A stretch of 46,577 nt of DNA from an uncultured Bacilli bacterium (GCA_944331835.1 CALVIU010000003.1:1-46577); one strand, 5' to 3'; counted from the stretch's first letter, positions 4,520-17,029 are shown. Translations and numbers: made by a program. The notes: generated by a model from the letters alone, not told the origin.

Positions 4520-5650
4520 ATGAAGAAGAAATATTTAATTATTAGTATAAGTGTTTTACTTGTATTATCTACTTGTTTATATGTATTTATAAGTGATACT
4601 ACAGAAAAAGTAGTTATAAGCAGTAATAAGGAAAGTAACAGAAGTGTAGTTAATACTAATGCATTAACGATGATGTATGAAACAGAAGCGGGTAGCGGAG
4701 AATATCAAGTTAGTAGTGATACTTCTTGGCCAACTGATGGATATACATTTAATGAAACTTTGTCAAAGTGTGAAAATGGAAGTGCTCTTACTTGGGACAA
4801 TGAAAATAAAAGAGTAGTTGTATCAACTTCAGTTTCTGATAAGTGTTATGTTTACTTTGATAAAGAACCAGATGTTATATATTTAGCAAGTTATATAACA
4901 AGTCAATATACAACAGATGGGGAAAATGGATTATATTATCACGATGCGGACTTAGCAAATGGAGCAGGGGATAATAGTTATCGTTTTAGTGGAGCAAATC
5001 CAAATAACTATGTGTGTTTTGGAACAGATGAAGTAAGTTGTCCAGAAGATAACTTGTATCGAATAATTGGAGTATTTAATGGACAAGTAAAACTAATAAA
5101 ATCAACAAGTTATGGAAATTATGTTTGGGATGATGGAAATAGTAATACTTGGGATGCGAGTACGAAACCAGATATATATACAACATTAAATACAACATAC
5201 TATAATACACTAGGAAGTGAATGGCAAAGTAAAATAGCCACACATAGTTGGAAAGTAGGGGGAATGGCAAGAGATACATCAGCAACAGCAAAAGATTATT
5301 ACGATACAGAAGTAGGTACAGGACAAAGTGGATACGAAGAAACGATGAAAATAGGACTAATGTATGTAAGTGATTATGGATATGGAGCAAGCGAGGAATA
5401 TTGGACAACAGAACTAAATAATTATGAACCAACAGTAGATTCAAATTGGATGTATTTAGGCGCTTATGAATGGTTAATTTCCCGCAATTCGGGCAATACG
5501 TACAGTGCGTTCAGTGTGGGCAGCGCAGGATATGTGGGCAGCCGCCGCGTGAACTATACGTATGCGGTGAGGCCGTCCTTCTATCTGGAGTCTGATGTAA
5601 CATATGCTAGCGGATCAGGCAGTATGACTGACCCGCTAAAGATAAACTAG
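4520..5650 (+). CDS. DGR target: membrane-anchored C-type-lectin-like variable protein
   Basis: The ATG at 4520 is preferred over TTG at 4478: it has AAAGGA/GGAG upstream and gives a proper N-terminus, MKKKYLIISISVLLVLSTCL, a single membrane anchor or uncleaved signal. The 376-aa product then has an extracytoplasmic region; the last half (from about YRIIGVFNGQVKLIKS) looks like the C-type-lectin/formylglycine-enzyme-like fold common in DGR targets, ending with WLISR...AVRPSFYL. Residues 325-348 fall in the variable repeat. Thirteen codons there differ from the template, mostly Asn in the template becoming Gly, Ser, Arg or Tyr. No LPxTG anchor is present. Likely role: surface display of a diversified binding site; the ligand is unknown. 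Confidence 0.85.
   Translation: MKKKYLIISISVLLVLSTCLYVFISDTTEKVVISSNKESNRSVVNTNALTMMYETEAGSGEYQVSSDTSWPTDGYTFNETLSKCENGSALTWDNENKRVVVSTSVSDKCYVYFDKEPDVIYLASYITSQYTTDGENGLYYHDADLANGAGDNSYRFSGANPNNYVCFGTDEVSCPEDNLYRIIGVFNGQVKLIKSTSYGNYVWDDGNSNTWDASTKPDIYTTLNTTYYNTLGSEWQSKIATHSWKVGGMARDTSATAKDYYDTEVGTGQSGYEETMKIGLMYVSDYGYGASEEYWTTELNNYEPTVDSNWMYLGAYEWLISRNSGNTYSAFSVGSAGYVGSRRVNYTYAVRPSFYLESDVTYASGSGSMTDPLKIN
5475..5575 (+). repeat. DGR variable repeat (VR)
   Basis: This 101-bp repeat matches the template at 5893-5993 without gaps. All 17 mismatches (5493, 5501, 5505, 5514, 5519, 5520, 5523, 5525, 5537, 5538, 5541, 5543, 5544, 5546, 5547, 5555, 5561) are adenines in the template: 12 have become G, 3 T and 2 C. 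The 3' end, 5562-5575 (TGCGGTGAGGCCG core), is identical and G+C rich, as expected where mutagenic homing initiates. Confidence 0.96.
5608..5638 (+). other. Inverted repeat just downstream of the VR
   Basis: TAGCGG (5608-5613) pairs with CCGCTA (5633-5638), with an inner CAGT/ACTG (5620-5623/5627-5630). It sits in the last codons of the target gene, 33 bp past the VR. In the Bordetella phage DGR a hairpin/cruciform just downstream of the VR promotes homing; the same function here is inference. Confidence 0.5.
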
Positions 5651-5652
5651 GG

Positions 5653-5674
5653 GCGAAGAAAGGCTCGTCTTCGC
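5653..5674 (+). other. Hairpin after the target stop codon
   Basis: GCGAAGA (5653-5659) and TCTTCGC (5668-5674) form a perfect 7-bp stem with an 8-nt loop, three bases after the stop. No long T-tract follows, so it is a weak terminator candidate or part of the DGR homing/RNA structure. Confidence 0.5.
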
Positions 5675-5758
5675 GCCTTTACGGTGCGAGGCGAGCGGGG
5701 TAAAAATTGGGCTACGAGAGAGTAAGGTTGAAGACAAACATTGATGAAAAATTGGACT

Positions 5759-5792
5759 CTGCCACATCTGCGTGTAAATGCAGGTGTGGCAG
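5759..5792 (+). ncRNA. Strong hairpin in the VR-TR spacer (candidate TR-RNA structure)
   Basis: A 13-bp stem (5759-5771/5780-5792) with one G-U pair and an 8-nt loop, unusually G+C rich for this genome. A second hairpin, ATTGCTAC 5801-5808 / GTGGCAAT 5821-5828, follows at once. Neither is in a credible reading frame. They are probably folded parts of the TR-containing RNA, or regulatory structures. Confidence 0.5.
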
Positions 5793-5832
5793 GCACGCAT
5801 ATTGCTACTTTGTGCAGTCAGTGGCAATGAAT

Positions 5833-5871
5833 AGTTATATTTAACATACCTTCTTTCATTTAAATATAACT
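5833..5871 (+). other. A+U hairpin upstream of the TR
   Basis: AGTTATATTTAA (5833-5844) pairs perfectly over 12 bp with 5860-5871, with a 15-nt pyrimidine-rich loop (CATACCTTCTTTCAT). A hairpin of the same design lies on the other side of the TR at 6190-6236. Confidence 0.55.
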
Positions 5872-5892
5872 TATTATTGGGTAATCTTATGA

Positions 5893-5993
5893 TAATTTCC
5901 CGCAATTCGGACAATACGAACAATGCGTTCAATGTGAACAACACAGGATATGTGAACAACAACAACGTGAACAATACGAATGCGGTGAGGCCG
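5893..5993 (+). repeat. DGR template repeat (TR)
   Basis: Invariant donor copy of the VR, 418 bp downstream on the same strand and upstream of the reverse transcriptase. Read in the VR frame it is dominated by AAC/AAT codons (14), the design that allows the widest amino-acid choice when A is mutated without creating stops. It has no start codon of its own and runs into stops just after the repeat (frame ...AVRPRPL*). Confidence 0.96.
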
Positions 5994-6031
5994 AGACCTT
6001 TATAGTTCTAGGATGATAAGATTAAGGTTTT

Positions 6032-6085
6032 ATGATGAATGAGATAAAGGACAAAGATTATCCTGAGCAATATGCTCGAATATGA
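6032..6085 (+). other. Possible micro-ORF sharing a peptide motif with 16919-16984
   Basis: ATGATG at 6032 opens 17 codons containing NEIKDKDYPE, with AAGG 4 nt upstream. The copy at 16919 encodes NEMKDKDYPE. The differences inside the motif (ATA/ATG, CCT/CCA, GAG/GAA) are all at third codon positions, which hints at coding constraint. It could instead be an RNA element. Confidence 0.3.
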
Positions 6086-6189
6086 AATATGCACGGAGGG
6101 TTATACGTAACCTTCCTATATGGCATATTGATAAATTTTGACGATGATTAATTAAATTTGAGGCTGGTTTCCTTTCCTGGCTTTACCGA

Positions 6190-6242
6190 GTGATAAAAAT
6201 TAAATGCTTTCTCCTTTCTTATTTAATTTTTATCACACTTTT
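6190..6242 (+). terminator. Perfect 16-bp hairpin with T-tract; possible attenuator before DGR accessory genes
   Basis: GTGATAAAAATTAAAT (6190-6205) pairs perfectly with 6221-6236, followed by six T (6239-6244). It could end the TR RNA. The 15-nt loop contains CTCCTTT (6211-6217), complementary to the AAAGGAG ribosome site (6262-6268) of the next gene and resembling the 16S anti-SD, so a loop-SD interaction is conceivable. Confidence 0.55.
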
Positions 6243-6273
6243 TTAATGAATATTTTGTAGTAAAGGAGTAGTA

Positions 6274-6654
6274 ATGAATAAAAATTATGTTTCCCTTTAT
6301 AAATCGGGAAAGTTTTACAATGCATTCGGGGACGATGGTTTGATATTACATCATTTAATTGGGTATAAATTTGTAGAGTACAAACAATCAGTTGGTTTTC
6401 CAGAAAGTGCTTTTGGAAAAGTTAAAAGTTTATTAGATGATGTAGATATATCTTATAAAGTTTATGATAAAGATATATTAATTGAAGAAAAGAAGGGTAA
6501 TAATAAAAAATATAACAAGGTATTAAGTGAAGCTTTAAAGAAATATGATTTAGAAAAAAGACTTATAAGAATTAAAGATAAAATTAATACCTTTAGTGCT
6601 GAAGATTTAGAAAAAATAATCGAGGGTATTGAAAGTGGAAAAGATAACGAATAA
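6274..6654 (+). CDS. DGR accessory protein, MutS domain-I-like
   Basis: 126 aa. The first 65 residues (YKSGKFYNAFGDDGLILHHL ... VGFPESAFGKVKSLLDD ... YKVYDKD) resemble the mismatch-recognition domain I of MutS, whose pattern is K-x-G-x-FY-x-x-F-x-x-DA. The rest is helical and charged. No ATPase or clamp domains exist, so this is not a mismatch-repair MutS. MutS-like small proteins are known beside some DGRs. It has a strong SD (AAAGGAG, 6262-6268) and overlaps the Avd gene by 26 bp. It might bind mismatched cDNA-target duplexes during homing; that role is inference. Confidence 0.7.
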   Translation: MNKNYVSLYKSGKFYNAFGDDGLILHHLIGYKFVEYKQSVGFPESAFGKVKSLLDDVDISYKVYDKDILIEEKKGNNKKYNKVLSEALKKYDLEKRLIRIKDKINTFSAEDLEKIIEGIESGKDNE

Positions 6655-6991
6655 TGAGAAATTTTTAATAATAAAAAATATTAAAAGTTTTATTTTAGGT
6701 TTAGAAAAAATACTGTTAACTTTTCCTAAGAAAGATTTAATTTCAAGAAGTTTAGTTTATAATGATTCTTTAGAGCTTTTAGAATTAGTTGTTAAGGCTA
6801 ATTATGAAAATAATATTGATCTTAAACATAATTATCAAATTGCAGCTTTAGCTAAAATAAATAAAATAGATTTTTATTTAGAAAGGGCATATAAACTTAA
6901 ATATATAAGTGAAAAACAATGTTTAAGTAAAACGGGACAATTACTTAAAATTAATAAAATGATTTATGTGTGGTGTCGTAATGAAAAATGA
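6629..6991 (+). CDS. avd: Avd-like accessory variability determinant
   Basis: 120 aa, all helical, basic, no signal or membrane segment. It fits the four-helix Avd family, which forms a barrel-shaped pentamer that binds the reverse transcriptase and TR RNA. Family-like features are the C-terminal run YISEKQCLSKTGQLLKINKM and the helix NYQIAALAKINKIDFYLERA. The start is TTG at 6629 with GAGGG at 6622-6626, inside the preceding gene; the next gene overlaps its end. The location immediately before the reverse transcriptase is the standard DGR order. The family call rests on context and pattern, not an alignment. Confidence 0.75.
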   Translation: MKVEKITNNEKFLIIKNIKSFILGLEKILLTFPKKDLISRSLVYNDSLELLELVVKANYENNIDLKHNYQIAALAKINKIDFYLERAYKLKYISEKQCLSKTGQLLKINKMIYVWCRNEK

Positions 6992-8060
6992 CCTTACAGT
7001 AAATAATTTATTAAAAATATATGAAACAGAAATATCTAAGAATGTTAAAAATAAAAAAAGTTTATATAATTTTGAAGTAAATAAAATGCAAAATATTACT
7101 AATATATTAAGTATGTTAAATAATGGTGATATTGGACATAAGAAATACAATATATTTTTAATTTATGAACCTAAATGTAGATTAGTAATGTCTTTAAGTG
7201 TTAGTGATAAAATTATTAATCATTTCGTAACTAGATATTCTTTAGAAAAGAATTTAACTAAATATTTGGATCCTAGAAATATTGCAACTAGAAAGAATAT
7301 GGGAACTGATTATGGAATTAAATTAGTTAGAAAATATTTAAATAAATTAAAAAAAGATAATGATATGTTTTATATACTAAAAATTGATATAAGTAAATAT
7401 TTTTATAGTATAGATCATAATGTATTAAAAAGTGAACTTAAGGATAAATTAGATGATTATGAATACGATATAATAAGTAAAATAATTGATACTACTAATG
7501 AAGAATATGTAAATAAAGAAATATTTCATAATATATCTAAACATAATCTTGATTTACCGCTATATTATTTTGGTAAAGGTCTTCCAATTGGCAATATGAC
7601 TAGTCAATTCCTTTCGATATTCTATTTACATAAATTAGATCATTTTATAGTTCATGATTTAAAATTAAAGTATTATGTTAGATATATGGATGATTTTATA
7701 ATAATGGATAAAGATCTTAATAAATTAAAACAAGCTAGAGAAATAATTATTGAAAAGTTAGAACAAGAATATAAATTAAAAGTAAATACGAAAAAAACTT
7801 TTATAGTAAATAGTAAAATAGGTTTTGCTTTTTTAGGATATGTGTTTAAAGTGTTAGATAATAAAACAATTATTAAAATTAAAAGATGTAATTTAGAAAA
7901 GATAAAGAAAAGAGTTAAAAAAGTAAATTATTTATTTAAAAATAAAAAGATAAGTCATTATAAAGCATTTTGTACAATTATGACTTATTCTAATTGTTAT
8001 AAATATAGTAATAATATAAGAGTATTAAAACTTATTGATAAATATTTTTATGAAAAATAA
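6981..8060 (+). CDS. DGR reverse transcriptase
   Basis: 359 aa from ATG 6981 (ATG 6966 also possible). Copies TR RNA into cDNA with errors at adenines. Motifs in order: YEPKCRLVMSLSVSDKIINH; motif A FYILKIDISKYFYSIDH; motif B GLPIGNMTSQFLSIFYLHKL, the I/LGNxTSQ form of DGR enzymes in place of the group II QGxxxSP; catalytic YVRYMDDF; and motif E region FAFLGYVFK. There is no maturase or endonuclease domain, and the length suits a DGR enzyme. It overlaps Avd upstream and a small ORF downstream. Confidence 0.93.
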   Translation: MKNDLTVNNLLKIYETEISKNVKNKKSLYNFEVNKMQNITNILSMLNNGDIGHKKYNIFLIYEPKCRLVMSLSVSDKIINHFVTRYSLEKNLTKYLDPRNIATRKNMGTDYGIKLVRKYLNKLKKDNDMFYILKIDISKYFYSIDHNVLKSELKDKLDDYEYDIISKIIDTTNEEYVNKEIFHNISKHNLDLPLYYFGKGLPIGNMTSQFLSIFYLHKLDHFIVHDLKLKYYVRYMDDFIIMDKDLNKLKQAREIIIEKLEQEYKLKVNTKKTFIVNSKIGFAFLGYVFKVLDNKTIIKIKRCNLEKIKKRVKKVNYLFKNKKISHYKAFCTIMTYSNCYKYSNNIRVLKLIDKYFYEK

Positions 8061-8292
8061 GTGTGAATTTTTTAAAAGAATATATAAAGATTATGTAATT
8101 ATATTTGATTATAATGGTGTAAAAAAAACAATGGGTTTTGATAAAATGTTACAAAAATATATAAGAAATGGTGATATAAATTATATTATTGTTTATAATG
8201 ATTTTACTATAGAAAAACATATATGTAAGAATAATAATTACTATAAGTATTTAATAATTGATTTTTTACAATATTTCGTTCGACAAAAGTAG
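8050..8292 (+). CDS. Small protein of unknown function after the reverse transcriptase
   Basis: 80 aa from ATG 8050 (TTG 8035 would add five residues). It overlaps the end of the reverse transcriptase by 11 bp, so it is translationally coupled and part of the DGR operon. The sequence is rich in Lys, Tyr, Ile and Asn, with KMLQKYIRNGDINYIIVYND near the middle; no membrane segment, signal or Cys pair. I do not recognise a family. Codon and base use match its neighbours. Confidence 0.55.
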   Translation: MKNKCEFFKRIYKDYVIIFDYNGVKKTMGFDKMLQKYIRNGDINYIIVYNDFTIEKHICKNNNYYKYLIIDFLQYFVRQK

Positions 8293-8299
8293 ACAGCAT

Positions 8300-8390
8300 C
8301 TCCTATGGACAATGGAGTATTTGTGTGTTAGCTTAGCTAATTAAGGAAGAAATGCTAATAGATCAAATACCTAGGGTTAGTAAATTCTTC
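8300..8390 (+). ncRNA. Candidate structured leader RNA upstream of the Rpn-like gene
   Basis: The 123-bp gap 8293-8415 has nested pairings: CTCC 8300-8303 / GGAG 8314-8317; GTATTTG 8317-8323 / CAAATAC 8364-8370; TTAGC 8328-8332 / GCTAA 8354-8358. In addition GAAGAA (8346-8351), in the apical loop, can pair with TTCTTC (8385-8390) as a pseudoknot, just before an AGAGGG ribosome site. It matches no riboswitch consensus I know. Confidence 0.4.
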
Positions 8391-8415
8391 TATTAAAGAA
8401 AGAGGGATTTGGTTA

Positions 8416-9270
8416 ATGAGTAAAAATAATAATACAGTAAAGGGATCAGATGATAATTGCTTTAAATCAATTGTTGCATCCCCTAAAGGAAAAGAAATAC
8501 TAGAAAGTATATTAAAACAAGTATTAAAAAGTGATGTAGAGATAATCGAATTTGTTAATACAGAATTAGGGAAATTTAATAAAAATGTAAAAAATAAAAG
8601 AACAGATATTATAGTAAAAATTGATGGAATAATAGCAAATGTAGAAGTAAATACGAATGATTATATATATTCTAAATTTTTTAGAAATTTTGTCTATCTA
8701 GTTTCACTATTTAGTAGGTATTGTGTGAAAGAAAATAAAAATAAGAAAAAGATATATGACACAATAACAAATATAATCCAAATAAATTTAAATTTTGGAG
8801 TTACTGATATAAAAACAGATAAACTAATATTAGAAAATAGATTTGGAAATGCAGAAGGACATATAATAAAGAATTTAGTATCATATGATGTTTTTGTAGA
8901 CAATATCAAGAAATTTTGCTATGATAATGATGAAATAGAGCAATATAAGTATTTGCTTATGTTAGATATGACATTGGATGAGTTAAGAAGCTTCTATCCA
9001 AGTGATGAAATAATAAAGGAATATGGTGATGCACTTATGAAATATAGTGAAGATACATTTATATATCCGTATAGTGAAGAAGAGGAAAAAGAGATGCTTC
9101 ATAATACAGAACTTGATATAGCGTATAATGATGGTGTTGAGAAAGGCATTGAGCAAAAAGAAATAGAAATGATAAAGAATTTCTATAAAATAGGTACACC
9201 AGTTGAAGATATAGCTAAAGCTAGTAATTTAAGTGTAGATGAAGTAAATAAAATATTAAAAGAAAAATAA
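8416..9270 (+). CDS. Rpn-like PD-(D/E)XK nuclease family protein
   Basis: 284 aa. The N-terminal part fits the PD-(D/E)XK family often annotated as transposase or Rpn: NCFKSIVASPKGKEILESIL, then KNKRTDIIVKIDGIIANVEV (D, then E-x-N in place of the usual E-x-Q). The C-terminus has the family's regulatory tail: acidic SEEEEKEM, DGVEKGIEQKEIEMIKNFYK, and a helix-turn-helix-like VEDIAKASNLSVDEVNKIL. Related proteins promote RecA-independent recombination or act as defence-like nucleases. No terminal inverted repeats or target duplication were seen. The start has AGAGGG upstream. It follows the DGR directly, so it may be part of the same accessory block. Confidence 0.75.
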   Translation: MSKNNNTVKGSDDNCFKSIVASPKGKEILESILKQVLKSDVEIIEFVNTELGKFNKNVKNKRTDIIVKIDGIIANVEVNTNDYIYSKFFRNFVYLVSLFSRYCVKENKNKKKIYDTITNIIQINLNFGVTDIKTDKLILENRFGNAEGHIIKNLVSYDVFVDNIKKFCYDNDEIEQYKYLLMLDMTLDELRSFYPSDEIIKEYGDALMKYSEDTFIYPYSEEEEKEMLHNTELDIAYNDGVEKGIEQKEIEMIKNFYKIGTPVEDIAKASNLSVDEVNKILKEK

Positions 9271-9306
9271 GGATTTTAAAAACATATAATTAATAAGGTG
9301 ATATGC

Positions 9307-9552
9307 GTGCATATGAAAGATAACCTTATTAATTTTTTATATGATAAAAAATATTTTATAAATATATATGATGAATATATTCATATATTTAATTATCAGG
9401 AGTTAGTTAGTTTATCCAGTAAGAAAATAGTGTTAAAAATGGAAACATTTAAAATAGAAGTAACTGGAGATAATTTATTTATAACTAGAATGTTGCCTAA
9501 TGAAATCCTCATTAAAGGTATTATAGGTAAGGTGGAATTTAGTTATGAATAA
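9307..9552 (+). CDS. yqfC: YabP/YqfC-family sporulation protein
   Basis: About 81 aa; all-beta protein with KIVLKMETFKIEVTGDNLFI and LIKGIIGKVEF, the YqfC/YabP pattern. Membership also follows from position: it overlaps yqfD by 8 bp, and the pair heads the ybeY-era-recO cluster as in Bacillus. YqfC is made in the mother cell under SigE in Bacillus; its molecular role is unknown. The start is uncertain: AAGG at 9295-9298 fits GTG 9307, with ATG 9313 next and GTG 9298 upstream. Confidence 0.75.
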   Translation: MHMKDNLINFLYDKKYFINIYDEYIHIFNYQELVSLSSKKIVLKMETFKIEVTGDNLFITRMLPNEILIKGIIGKVEFSYE

Positions 9553-10702
9553 AAAAATTATCTGGGTTAGAAGTAAATGTAAGGATTATTATAGATTTAT
9601 AAATAAAATTCAATATTTAAATATTGTAATATTGGATATAAAATATGAAAATGATTATGTATATTTAAAAATAGAAGATAAATATTTAGATAAATTAAAT
9701 AAGTATTTAGTTAGTTATAAATTTGAGATAGTTAATGTAATTGGGATTTATGAAGTAATAAGTAAATTGAAGAAAAATTATATTTTTGTTATATGTCTAG
9801 TGTTAGGTGTTTGTCTATTTTTAATTCTTAGTAATTTAGTTGTAAAAATTAATGTTATTCATGAAAATAAAGAAATAAGAGACATTATTCAAGATGAACT
9901 TGAAGAATATGGAATTACTGTTTTAAGTTTTAAAAAAAGTTATAATGAATTAGATAAAATAAGACAAGAAATCTTAGATAAATATCCTGACAAACTTGAT
10001 TGGATGGAATTTGATGTTGATGGTATGGTTATTAATGTTCGGGTGGAAGAACGTATTATTACCGATACTAGTAAAGAAGATAAAGTATGCGATTTGGTGG
10101 CTACTAAATCAGGAGTTATAAATGATATATTAGTTAGTGATGGAGAGGTTAAAGTAAACATTAATGATTATGTAAGAGAGGGAGATACATTAGTTAGTGG
10201 GGTTATTACTTATAATGAAGAAAATAAAAGATATACTTGTGCTAGCGGTAGAGTTTTTGCAACAACTTGGTATACGGCATCAGTTTCAATACCATTAGAA
10301 TATAAAGAATATGTTGAAACTGGTAAGAAAAAGTATAATATAGTATGGGAAGTAGATGATAATAAAAAAAATATTTTAAGAGATAGATTTACGACATTTA
10401 ATAGTTCTTTAAAAAATATTTTGCATGTATTTGATTTTAATTTATATATTGAGACCCAAAAAGAGACTGAAGAAATAATTAAAACATATAGTGAAAGTGA
10501 GGCTTTAGAAGTAGGTATCAATAAGGCTACAGAAAGTATAGAAGTAACACTTGGAGAATTTGATGAAATAATTGATAAAAAAGTTTTGAAAAAATCAGTA
10601 AATAATAGTACAATGGATATAGAAGTATTTATAATAGTGAAAGAATTAATAAGTACAGAAAAAGAAGTTATAATAGAAGAGAATGCTGAAGGGATGCGAT
10701 AA
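9545..10702 (+). CDS. yqfD: Sporulation protein YqfD
   Basis: 385 aa. The N-terminal domain resembles the YqfD N-terminus. One transmembrane helix (about 80-100, YIFVICLVLGVCLFLILSNL) separates it from an extracytoplasmic region with KYPDKLDWMEFDVDGMVINV and VEERI, and CDLVATKSGVINDILVSDGE, a conserved core of YqfD/SpoIV proteins. Bacillus YqfD is needed for efficient late sporulation. The 8-bp overlap with yqfC implies coupled translation. Confidence 0.85.
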   Translation: MNKKIIWVRSKCKDYYRFINKIQYLNIVILDIKYENDYVYLKIEDKYLDKLNKYLVSYKFEIVNVIGIYEVISKLKKNYIFVICLVLGVCLFLILSNLVVKINVIHENKEIRDIIQDELEEYGITVLSFKKSYNELDKIRQEILDKYPDKLDWMEFDVDGMVINVRVEERIITDTSKEDKVCDLVATKSGVINDILVSDGEVKVNINDYVREGDTLVSGVITYNEENKRYTCASGRVFATTWYTASVSIPLEYKEYVETGKKKYNIVWEVDDNKKNILRDRFTTFNSSLKNILHVFDFNLYIETQKETEEIIKTYSESEALEVGINKATESIEVTLGEFDEIIDKKVLKKSVNNSTMDIEVFIIVKELISTEKEVIIEENAEGMR

Positions 10703-10703
10703 T

Positions 10704-11321
10704 ATGTTTCTAAACACTATTGAATCAATTTTGAATGATAATTGGCCAATTTTAGTAATATTTGTCATAACCCTTGTTATAGTTAGATTTTTTTATTTAA
10801 GAACACATCGTGAAAAAATTAGTTTTTATCGCGAATTTTTAATGATTATCTCGATATGCTATATTTTCTTGTTATTTCAATTATTAACTAAGGTCGAAAT
10901 GAATTCTAATAGTGGATTTAACATTATTCCTTTTCAAGAAATATTTCGCTATGAAGTAGGTAGTAGACTCTTTATCTTTAATGTATTTGGTAATATTATG
11001 GCATTTGTTTTATTTGGTTTAATTGTTTCAAGTTATATTAAACCTAAGACAGTTGTACCACCGATTATTATTTCTCTTCTAGTTAGTGTGACAGTCGAAT
11101 TTGTACAACTTAATATTGGGAGAAGTTTTGATGTCGATGATATAATTTTAAATGTTGTCGGTGGTTTAATTGGTTTTTTACTTTATATTGGTTTAAGTGC
11201 TATAAAAGATCATCTACCAAGAATTTTTCAGCGTGATGGTATTTACAATTTAATTTGTTTTATTATAATATTGGTTATAATATTTTATATATTAAATGTA
11301 ACGGGGGTAATAAACTTATAA
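10704..11321 (+). CDS. VanZ-like membrane protein
   Basis: 205 aa from ATG 10704, which has AAGGG about 10 nt upstream; ATG 10683 would add seven residues inside yqfD. About five transmembrane helices. The region NIIPFQEIFRYEVGSRLFIF, NVFGNIMAFVLFGLI and VEFVQLNIGRSFDVDDIILN is characteristic of the VanZ-like family. VanZ confers low-level teicoplanin resistance in enterococci; most chromosomal homologues have no known substrate. It occupies the place of phoH between yqfD and ybeY in Bacillus. Its stop overlaps the ybeY start. Confidence 0.85.
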   Translation: MFLNTIESILNDNWPILVIFVITLVIVRFFYLRTHREKISFYREFLMIISICYIFLLFQLLTKVEMNSNSGFNIIPFQEIFRYEVGSRLFIFNVFGNIMAFVLFGLIVSSYIKPKTVVPPIIISLLVSVTVEFVQLNIGRSFDVDDIILNVVGGLIGFLLYIGLSAIKDHLPRIFQRDGIYNLICFIIILVIIFYILNVTGVINL

Positions 11322-11770
11322 TGAATGAATTTAAGATTGTTGATGAATATGGATGTAACTTTGATTATAGTTATTTAGATAAGATAATTAATAAGGCTTT
11401 GGAAATGGAGGGTGTTGACTCTTCGATATTTAGTATAGTATTTATTGATGATGAAAAAATGCATGAATTAAATAAAACATATCGGGGAATTGATAGAACT
11501 ACGGATGTTTTATCATTTGCATTTGAAGATAATAATAAACTTTGCTATAATATAAGGCAGCTTGGTGAGATTTTTGTCTCTATTCCTAGAATGCAACAAC
11601 AAGCTAAGGAATATGGTCATAGTGAAGTAAGAGAATTATCTTTCTTAGTTGTACATGGTTTACTTCATTTGCTAGGATATGACCACACTAAGGGTGAAAA
11701 AGAAGAAAAAGAAATGTTTTCGAAGCAGGAGTTGGTATTAGATGAATTCGAAGAAACAAAACGCTCATAA
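11321..11770 (+). CDS. ybeY: Endoribonuclease YbeY (16S rRNA maturation)
   Basis: 149 aa from ATG 11321, which overlaps the previous stop; longer readings have no ribosome site. GGGGG lies about 10 nt upstream. Zinc site: VVHGLLHLLGYDHTKGEKEE (HGxxHLxGYDH). Other family marks are YRGIDRTTDVLSFAF and LGEIFVSIPRM. The enzyme trims the 3' end of 16S rRNA and takes part in late 30S quality control. It overlaps dgkA by 29 bp. Confidence 0.95.
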   Translation: MNEFKIVDEYGCNFDYSYLDKIINKALEMEGVDSSIFSIVFIDDEKMHELNKTYRGIDRTTDVLSFAFEDNNKLCYNIRQLGEIFVSIPRMQQQAKEYGHSEVRELSFLVVHGLLHLLGYDHTKGEKEEKEMFSKQELVLDEFEETKRS

Positions 11771-12137
11771 GAAGATGAGTTTTAAAAGATTTTTAAATAG
11801 TATTAAGTATTCAGTGCAAGGACTCGCTCATGGATATCGTAATGAACAAAGTTTATGGCTTCATGGGGCTGGGACAATATTAGCAATTATATTGGGATTT
11901 GCATTAAAAATATCATTTAATCAATGGGCAATAATTATCATTGCTCTTGTAGTAGTATTAGCAGTAGAACTTTTAAATACTGCTATTGAAGCAACTGTCG
12001 ATTTAGTTACCAAAGAAATTCATCCACTAGCTAAAGTGGCTAAAGATTGTGCTTCAGCTGCAGCTTTTGTAAGTGCTTTAATGGCAACAATTATATGTTT
12101 ATTTATCTTTATTCCATACATCATCGATTTATTTTAG
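11742..12137 (+). CDS. dgkA: Diacylglycerol/undecaprenol kinase family
   Basis: 131 aa with three transmembrane helices, typical of the small integral-membrane DgkA family. Catalytic and metal residues lie in VELLNTAIEATVDLV, followed by AKDCASAAAFVSAL. In Gram-positive species the family member mainly phosphorylates undecaprenol for cell-wall lipid-carrier recycling. It starts inside ybeY (29-bp overlap) and precedes era, matching the Bacillus order ybeY-dgkA-era. ATG 11775 is an alternative start. Confidence 0.93.
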   Translation: MNSKKQNAHKKMSFKRFLNSIKYSVQGLAHGYRNEQSLWLHGAGTILAIILGFALKISFNQWAIIIIALVVVLAVELLNTAIEATVDLVTKEIHPLAKVAKDCASAAAFVSALMATIICLFIFIPYIIDLF

Positions 12138-12149
12138 GGAGGTGTTACC

Positions 12150-13034
12150 TTGAGGAGTGGTTTTGTCAGTATTATAGGACGTCCTAATGTTGGTAAAAGT
12201 ACACTTGTTAATGCTATTATTAATAAAAAAATTGCTATTACTAGTGATGTATCAGGGACAACTAGAAATATAATTCAAGGAATTTATAATGAACCAGGAT
12301 ACCAAATAGTATTTGTTGATACTCCAGGTATTCATAAACCAATAAATAGACTCGGAAAAGTATTGAATAAACAAGCATTGTCTCTAACTAAAGATGTCGA
12401 TTTAATTTTATTTGTTGTAGATGTTGCTGCAGGTATCGGTAGAGGGGATATGTTTATTTTAGAAATGTTAAAATCTAGTGATATTCCAGTTATATTAGTA
12501 CTTAATAAGATTGATCAAATAAATAATGCTAAATTACTTAAGATAATTGATGAATATAAAGACATTTATCCATTTGTTGAAATTGTCCCAACTAGTGGAC
12601 TTACTCATGACAATATAACTCATTTAATTGATGTAATAAAGAAATATTTGAAAGATGAGGTTCAATATTTTCCAGAAGATTATTACACTAGTAGTAGTTT
12701 AAAGTTTATGGTAAGTGAGATTGTTCGGGAAAAGTTATTACAAGTAACGGAAGAAGAAATACCTCATAGTATTACTTGCTATACTACTTTGTATGAAGAA
12801 CATAAAGATATTATAAATATAGTAGTTGATATTATTGTTGATAGAGATAGTATTAAAAAAATAATCATTGGTAAGAATGGTAGTAGATTAAAACAAGTGG
12901 GGACAATTGCCAGAATGGAAATTGAAGAATTAGTAGGTAAGAAAGTCTATTTGGAGTTATTTGTTAAAGCAATTAAGAATTGGAAAGAAAAAGAAAAGTA
13001 TTTAGTTGAATTAGGTTTTGTAGATAATGAATAA
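12150..13034 (+). CDS. era: GTPase Era
   Basis: 294 aa; TTG start with GGGAGGTG upstream. G1 GRPNVGKST, G2 region SGTTRN, G3 DTPGIHK, G4 NKID, and a C-terminal KH domain with IIGKNGSRLKQVGTIARMEI. Era binds the 3' end of 16S rRNA and checks 30S assembly; its partner YbeY is encoded just upstream. Confidence 0.97.
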   Translation: MRSGFVSIIGRPNVGKSTLVNAIINKKIAITSDVSGTTRNIIQGIYNEPGYQIVFVDTPGIHKPINRLGKVLNKQALSLTKDVDLILFVVDVAAGIGRGDMFILEMLKSSDIPVILVLNKIDQINNAKLLKIIDEYKDIYPFVEIVPTSGLTHDNITHLIDVIKKYLKDEVQYFPEDYYTSSSLKFMVSEIVREKLLQVTEEEIPHSITCYTTLYEEHKDIINIVVDIIVDRDSIKKIIIGKNGSRLKQVGTIARMEIEELVGKKVYLELFVKAIKNWKEKEKYLVELGFVDNE

Positions 13035-13078
13035 AATTTAAATTAATCACCCAATATATAATTAGGACGGTGATTAAA

Positions 13079-13168
13079 TTGAAAAAAGAAGAACTATGGA
13101 AGAAGTTTCAAAAAAGTGGTAAGGTTGAAGATTATTTAGAATATAAAAAGTGCGCAAAGAAGGGTTAA
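13079..13168 (+). CDS. yqzL: YqzL-like micro-protein
   Basis: 29 aa from TTG 13079, with GGACGGTG upstream. The peptide contains LWKKFQKSGKVEDYLEYKK, which matches the YqzL pattern (W-x-x-F-x-x-[ST]G-x-[IV]-x-x-Y-L-x-[FY]-K). In Bacillus yqzL lies in the same place between era and recO. The stop TAA overlaps the recO ATG. Function is unknown in any species. It is too short for usual gene calls. Confidence 0.7.
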   Translation: MKKEELWKKFQKSGKVEDYLEYKKCAKKG

Positions 13169-13896
13169 TGGTGTTAACAGAAGTTGAAGGTTTTATATTA
13201 AGTGAGACTCCTTATGGAGAAACTAGTAAAATAATTAATGTGTTTACTAAAGATTATGGAGTTATTGGTATAATGTGTAAGGGCGCTAAGAGTCTTAAGA
13301 GTAAAAATAGAGTTTCAACAATGCGACTTACATTTGCTAAATTTAACATTTACTTAAAACAAGGAAAACTTTCAACCCTCGTTAGTGCCGATATTATCAA
13401 TCCTTTAAAAAGAATAAAAGAGGATATAATTTTAATTAGTTATTTAAGTTATTTAACTGAACTTACACATCAAGTAATTAAACAAAGTAATAGCCCAAAA
13501 ATCTATGATGATTTTATTAATGCTGTATTAAAAATTGAAGAAGGACTAGACCCTTTAGTTATAACTAACATCATAGAAATAAAATATTTAGCGGAATTAG
13601 GGGTATTATTTAGCCTAGATGAATGTGTTATGTGTGGCAGTAAAACTGGTATTGCAACGATTGATGCCGATAAAGGGGGATTTATTTGTCTTAATTGTTT
13701 AACTAATGAAGTAATCGTCGATAAGAAAGTAATAAAGATGTTAAGGATGTATTATTACGTCAATATTAAAAGTATCAGTAATATAAAAATAGAAGATGAT
13801 ATAAAAAATGTAATTAATAAATTTTTAGATATGTATTACGAAAGATACACAGGACTTTACTTAAACAGTAAAAACTTTTTAAAAAATTTAACTTAA
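13168..13896 (+). CDS. recO: DNA repair protein RecO
   Basis: 242 aa. ATG 13168 overlaps the preceding stop (TAATG) and has AAGAAGGG upstream. The N-terminal OB fold includes EGFILSETPYGETSKIINVF and GVIGIMCKGAKSLKSK; the C-terminal half carries the zinc ligands CVMCG and CLNC. RecO with RecR loads RecA on SSB-coated gaps. Its place after era is conserved in Firmicutes. Confidence 0.95.
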   Translation: MVLTEVEGFILSETPYGETSKIINVFTKDYGVIGIMCKGAKSLKSKNRVSTMRLTFAKFNIYLKQGKLSTLVSADIINPLKRIKEDIILISYLSYLTELTHQVIKQSNSPKIYDDFINAVLKIEEGLDPLVITNIIEIKYLAELGVLFSLDECVMCGSKTGIATIDADKGGFICLNCLTNEVIVDKKVIKMLRMYYYVNIKSISNIKIEDDIKNVINKFLDMYYERYTGLYLNSKNFLKNLT

Positions 13897-13916
13897 AATG
13901 ATTTTACTGTTTTTTT
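13863..13916 (+). terminator. Terminator at the end of recO
   Basis: AAACAGTAAAA (13863-13873) pairs over 11 bp with TTTTACTGTTT (13902-13912), then more T. The left arm lies in the last recO codons; the loop is long (28 nt). Confidence 0.5.
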
Positions 13917-16893: not shown

Positions 16894-16918
16894 GAAAATC
16901 TAAATAGTAATAATGTTG

Positions 16919-16984
16919 ATGGGGTTAAAGCGGCTAAATGAGATGAAGGACAAAGATTATCCAGAATTTAATCCAAACAAGTAA
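16919..16984 (+). other. Possible micro-ORF with NEMKDKDYPE motif
   Basis: ATG 16919 opens 21 codons ending TAA; the peptide contains RLNEMKDKDYPEFNPNK. The core is shared with 6032-6085 in the DGR spacer. No good ribosome site precedes it. The similarity continues 3' (ACCTT..TATATG.CA.ATT near 17004-17024), so the conserved unit may be RNA or DNA rather than a peptide. It lies just before the prepilin-like gene. Confidence 0.3.
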
Positions 16985-17029
16985 TATGAGTGAAATGTTA
17001 ACTACCTTTTTATATGCCACATTATTTTG

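Follow-up and report, generated by a model that had tools for sequence, protein, structure and literature searches.

The DGR of the Bordetella phage BPP-1 combines a reverse transcriptase (RT), an Avd protein, a template repeat (TR) and a variable repeat (VR) that differ at adenines only, a structured RNA 3' of the TR and a hairpin downstream of the VR (PMC3240598, PMC12875486), the hairpin being required for retrohoming (PMC3240598). CLec targets dispersed in the genome, two to seven per isolate, together with VRs left from lost templates, have been described for the Treponema denticola DGR (TvpA) (PMC4891356), while several DGR loci, remote targets and duplicated or shuffled target domains are found in Thiohalocapsa PB-PSB1 and Trichodesmium, the reported counts being nine loci with 15 targets (PMC10907252) and 18 loci with TR/VR homology (PMC8867640). 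Molecular confirmation of cellular DGR diversification has been obtained only in Legionella (PMC10907252). PMC10053308, with reference to an earlier survey, lists a MutS domain I protein (MSL, PF01624) among the known DGR accessories and mentions one further suggested accessory that lacks a Pfam family.

All the features shared by BPP-1, the dispersed CLec targets and orphan VRs of T. denticola, the multiple loci of Thiohalocapsa and Trichodesmium, and the MSL accessory were also found in the genome of the uncultured Bacilli bacterium analysed here. The window, that is the whole stretch of 46,577 nucleotides that we analysed (GCA_944331835.1 CALVIU010000003.1:1-46577), carries a complete chromosomal diversity-generating retroelement (Table 1).

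Composition of the locus

Table 1. Features of the DGR locus, with positions counted from the first letter of the window
Feature	Position	Strand	Remarks
Target gene	4520..5650	+	membrane anchor at the N-terminus; CLec domain at the C-terminus (about residues 120-376)
VR (variable repeat)	5475..5575	+	17 A-site differences to TR
Target hairpin, GC-rich, 3' of target stop codon	5663..5696	+	covarying stem of 14 pairs; probably serves in target recognition
Second strong hairpin, between VR and TR	5759..5792	+	one G-U pair is A-U in the C16 copy
TR (template repeat)	5893..5993	+	identical in L090
Conserved structured RNA tail of TR transcript	5993..6133	+
MSL, MutS domain I-like accessory	6274..6654	+	PF01624
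Avd	6635..6991	+	GTG start; alternative TTG at 6629
Reverse transcriptase (RT)	6981..8060	+	YMDD and IGNMTSQ motifs intact
Small ORF, 80 aa (MSL-B)	8050..8292	+	putative second, cryptic MutS-domain-I-like protein
Rpn/PDDEXK-type gene	8416..9270	+	within exchanged tract; neighbour, not counted as DGR part

An earlier note on this DNA had described a complete chromosomal DGR that looked intact, and the analysis supports this: target, VR, hairpin, TR, structured RNA, MSL, Avd, RT and small ORF are present. Points that go beyond the note are the likeness of the small ORF to MutS domain I, the conserved RNA and target hairpins, a second DGR class on another contig, a family of target-like genes across the genome and an apparent recent exchange of the core between species. 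Assignment to the DGRs is supported by the A-site TR/VR pair, the RT, the Avd, the hairpin downstream of the VR and the CLec target. A blind search returned as its top direct repeat 5475–5575 and 5893–5993 (101 nt, 83%), exactly the VR and TR proposed, and the count of mismatches was also as claimed, 17 of 101 positions and 17/17 at a TR adenine, with 38 A in the 101 nt of the TR (hypergeometric p = 3.6e-9 for the A-only pattern). The TR was said to be written in AAY codons, and 14 of its 33 codons are AAY in the target frame. The RT, Avd-like and MutS-like genes were all confirmed by family matches, the RT with PF00078 (5e-18) and phrog_1423 (2e-64), the Avd with phrog_3206 (4e-9; the NCBIfam Avd model gave 2e-6, below that model's cut-off) and MSL with PF01624 (24 bits, cut-off 20.6), and the claimed gene overlap is borne out by the ORF coordinates from MSL onward, each end among MSL, avd, RT and small ORF overlapping the next start. 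As for the CLec-type target, the fold check agreed with the claim: its predicted structure has a CLec domain that aligns best, at Z 17.5 over 197 residues, with the N-terminal domain of the IgA peptidase of T. ramosa, the next matches being Legionella Lcl and many C-type lectins. The sequence alone gave just a sub-threshold DUF6273 match.

The RT is an open frame, close to other DGR-type RTs, and has both the YxDD and the [ILV]GxxxSQ motif, the latter being a mark of DGR RTs; its best solved relative is 8ub7_A, which we take to be the BPP-1 DGR RT. A phage origin of the cassette was considered but found no support, given its housekeeping context and the lack of any phage RT above 32% identity among the matches listed. 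A second DGR is present in the same genome on contig C32, with an RT 49% identical and the order target - MSL - Avd - RT - TR - small ORF - target. Cassettes of the window type are here termed class I and those of the C32 type class II.

The RNA tail, 140 nt 3' of the TR, folds in class I into 33 pairs, 17 of them with compensatory changes and 97.9% of cells paired, its covariation score of 0.417 comparing with 0.167 for shuffles, and none of the slid controls came close. It was found in 25 of the 30 genomes of the genus, and in class II cassettes it is picked up beside the TR, with E values of roughly 5e-9 to 5e-13, by a covariance model that had been built from class I sequences only. Searched against Rfam 15, 5993–6133 matched no family, the only hit being an adjoining, far sub-threshold snoRNA match. 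This RNA is likely the counterpart of the BPP-1 spacer RNA. A degenerate copy of it, probably the footprint of a lost DGR, lies at 16901–17027 (+) of the window between two unrelated genes, with no RT nearby (covariance model E 6e-6). In a related DGR (L097, 3973–5179) four templates stand in tandem, every one of them followed by an RNA tail. The VR of this DGR, near 2374, is a mosaic that matches template 4 towards its 5' end and template 3 towards its 3' end, which looks like the successive use of two templates.

In a window of 28% GC, a GC-rich hairpin without U-tract stands out 3' of the stop codon, as it does in each VR-type target. Its 14 pairs are kept among class I hairpins, with compensatory changes at five, a count restricted to class I because class II hairpins were aligned too poorly by MAFFT for pair counts. 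Where a family member has no close match to a TR, the hairpin is mostly missing and AT-rich sequence stands in its place. The hairpin marks likely targets and is probably the element by which they are recognised. In class II targets (L040, L045, L053, L054, L055, L056, L059, L171) the motif TTATCAACA / TTATCCACA, close to a DnaA box, was seen just 3' of the hairpin, at a nearly fixed distance though the flanks diverge. Contig-based surveys state that they miss targets and templates far from the RT (PMC8144416); hairpin and RNA model offer sequence tags for finding them.

Taken together, we hold it highly likely that the locus is an active chromosomal DGR with hairpin-guided VR rewriting and the MutS-like pair in its machine. 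The TR would be transcribed together with its structured tail (5993–6133), RT–Avd would copy the TR RNA with errors at adenines, and the mutated cDNA would replace, through retrohoming guided by the hairpin 3' of the stop codon, the VR of the membrane-anchored CLec protein, presumably displayed at the surface and capable of ligand binding. MSL and the 80-aa ORF would belong to the machine, binding the mismatched or hairpin DNA intermediate.

MSL and the small ORF

MSL (126 aa) and the small ORF (80 aa) were matched to MutS domain I alone, so that they resemble one domain of MutS without being MutS; the connector, clamp and ATPase domains of MutS are absent from both according to Pfam. The mismatch-reading F-x-E motif, aligned by eye, was not found in MSL, where the Phe is invariant but the Glu has given way to other residues, such as N, H, R or Y. 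The small ORF had no family match in Pfam, PHROGs or NCBIfam, and its predicted model reached a pLDDT of 93. MSL and MSL-B both occur in cassettes of class I and class II, and an ORF of the small-ORF family is also present in more distant cassettes. On sequence and model, the small ORF is probably a second MutS-domain-I-like protein, less securely placed than MSL.

We consider it unlikely that the small ORF encodes some unrelated protein of small size and that its alpha/beta likeness to MutS domain I arose by chance. Foldseek alone found nothing significant for the model, and the top Z score in VIA structural alignments, 5.4, is moderate; however, the six best of these alignments all pointed to MutS-family domain I, mostly MSH3 (Z 4.8–5.4), the next falling to Z 2.1, and the HMMs of the two families each find members of the other, their profile comparison giving an E of 3e-5 and a probability of 72%. 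The reading of the small ORF as a second MutS-I-like protein is preferred, and it may be the same protein as the further suggested accessory without Pfam family mentioned in PMC10053308.

From fold and conservation, the two proteins may act in retrohoming by binding the intermediate, perhaps shielding it from host MutS. A bolder version, which we advance only tentatively and regard as doubtful, is that MSL and MSL-B jointly form a minimal heteroduplex reader without ATPase. Bound to the target hairpin or to the mismatch-rich cDNA:target duplex, the pair would keep host mismatch repair away from it and so allow even heavily mutated cDNA to be fixed, while hairpin-tagged VR cassettes would be swapped across genome-wide surface proteins, one machine serving many display genes. 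When the BPP-1 DGR was reconstructed in E. coli, an insertion reporter was repaired no differently in the absence of mutS (PMC12875486); since that insertion is not a MutS substrate, the result is no test of the shielding idea. The paired MutS-like proteins stand as a lead on how mutated cDNA might escape mismatch correction.

Change between near-identical copies in different species

Thirty genomes of the genus were compared, the relatives being metagenome assemblies in which chimeras at repeats are possible. RT matches at E 1e-30 or better were obtained in 23 of the 30, some of them broken genes, and the interrupted RT genes of several relatives indicate that the element is also lost or decaying. 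The cassette lies at the same site in two other species, G006 and G004 (polA - fpg - DGR - rpn), yqfD being next in the window and in G004.

The copy in G006 differs from window 5201–8796, VR left aside, at only 7 of 3,495 bp, and its TR at 0/101, whereas its VR differs at 24 of 101 positions, 24/24 at a TR adenine (Fisher p 7e-33). Outside the block the two species are divergent, with 268/1,600 differences in polA and 71/375 in the right flank (81-83% identity). In G004, 5922–9300 differs from the window at 9 of 3,379 positions and 9400–13900 at 768 of 4,495; its VR was not found in the G004 assembly, where contig breaks around target, VR and TR interrupt the cassette. The G006 copy thus provides a natural controlled comparison, a near-identical core in two species with VR change confined to TR adenines, and in this between-species form the test proposed in the earlier note, adenine-restricted diversity in the VR with an invariant TR, turned out positive. 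Likewise, the TR/VR pairs of many further cassettes have zero to two non-A mismatches per 55-nt segment. The simplest reading of these sequences is that a tract of ~5-6 kb was recently replaced between species by homologous recombination and was then subject to new adenine-directed rewriting, which would make the window DGR very probably active. Inside the near-identical block, a target patch of ~160 bp (window 5008–5167 against L090 of G006) is strongly different and is probably a recombination tract from a paralogue.

That patch, and the 793-bp 3' cassette that recurs unchanged in another gene (C16), would fit a DGR intact in appearance but now silent, in which case the VR differences between species would be old ones, passed from one paralogous target to another by recombination. 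We judge this very unlikely, as both VRs show 0 non-A mismatches to an identical TR within a block otherwise so little changed, while the VRs of C48, C14 and C28 in the window's genome, which look older and decayed, have 10-13 non-A mismatches to TR1 and no hairpin. Still less probable is that assembly or binning created the identical blocks of G000, G006 and G004 and that the species comparison is therefore invalid: all are metagenome bins and the G004 cassette is split, but the G006 contig spans 84 kb and diverges on both sides of the block, G004, a separately named assembly, repeats the pattern on the right side, and about 20 other cassettes show A-only change and covariation independently of these blocks. 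Ordinary diversifying selection on the protein can be practically dismissed, since the changed sites, although mostly first and second positions of AAY codons, follow the template and not the protein, with changes between the G006 and window VRs at 2/3 third-position A sites (one, GGA to GGC, synonymous), at 0/31 third-position non-A sites and at 0/63 non-A sites in either VR.

Putative remote targets and comparison with known systems

CLec-domain matches number 22 in the window's genome and 11-41 per genome across the genus. Ten CLec genes of the window's genome have the hairpin: two are of TR1 type (C3, C16), three are nearest TR2 (two on C32 and one on C21, the latter with more non-A changes) and five have orphan VRs (C5, C9, C11, C19, C23). 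Action on these remote targets would be in trans. Among the five orphan VRs, 39 of 98 columns vary, 32 of them at an A of a template found only in a relative, G010 (37 A columns; p = 6e-14), most other differences from that template being shared. The five lie on five contigs. No such template was found in the window's assembly, and these genes either serve a DGR that the assembly lacks or have outlived one that was lost.

The C16 gene carries window 4991–5783 unchanged on a different N-terminus. We rejected an independent TR1 retrohoming product because the 793 bp are identical to the window, VR included, which leaves a copied cassette or an assembly artefact; the identical copy could be an assembly error. 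The G006 orthologue of the C16 gene (84% N-terminus) has a VR and hairpin of class II type, and contig C63 of G004 has a near copy of window 5201–5394 in a third gene. These arrangements suggest that surface genes exchange cassettes made up of VR and hairpin.

The target N-termini on C5, C9, C16 and C23 (L055, L054, L039, L056) include SATYAYFQAQ and SFAYIVAQ, presumably resembling the SipW-type signals of biofilm matrix proteins; such TYAYF-like N-termini of remote targets had no Pfam or NCBIfam match and no known anchor domain. In our impression, uncounted, CLec-domain genes across the genus are often at contig ends, where one would expect them if assembly stops at repeats or at diverse VRs. 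At the same site in G011 (L190), a target-family gene stands alone between fpg and yqfD, with neither a hairpin nor a DGR core, so that the DGR core may have joined an older resident gene.

Compared with BPP-1, the window DGR is chromosomal, has the order target-TR-MSL-Avd-RT-MSL-B and includes two MutS-I-like accessories, the second by the weaker assignment given above. Its hairpin lies about 87 bp beyond the VR and consists of a bulged 14-bp stem closed by a loop of 5 nt, whereas those of phage DGRs have 7-10 bp and a 4-nt GRNA loop at 4-34 bp. The T. denticola DGR has an HRDC accessory in place of the MSL pair, and the present genome, of 1.25 Mb, differs further in its two classes of DGR and its family of about 22 members. 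Thiohalocapsa targets are putative conflict-system sensors, unlike the membrane-anchored CLec proteins found here, with a hairpin moving with the exchanged 3' cassette. With respect to DGRs with MSL, the window cassette adds a second, unrecognised ORF that is probably MutS-I-like. DGRs, MSL and remote targets are thus already known, and what is new is the pairing of MutS-like accessories and the genus-wide system; most surprising to us are this pairing and the cross-species comparison by which activity appears to be exposed.
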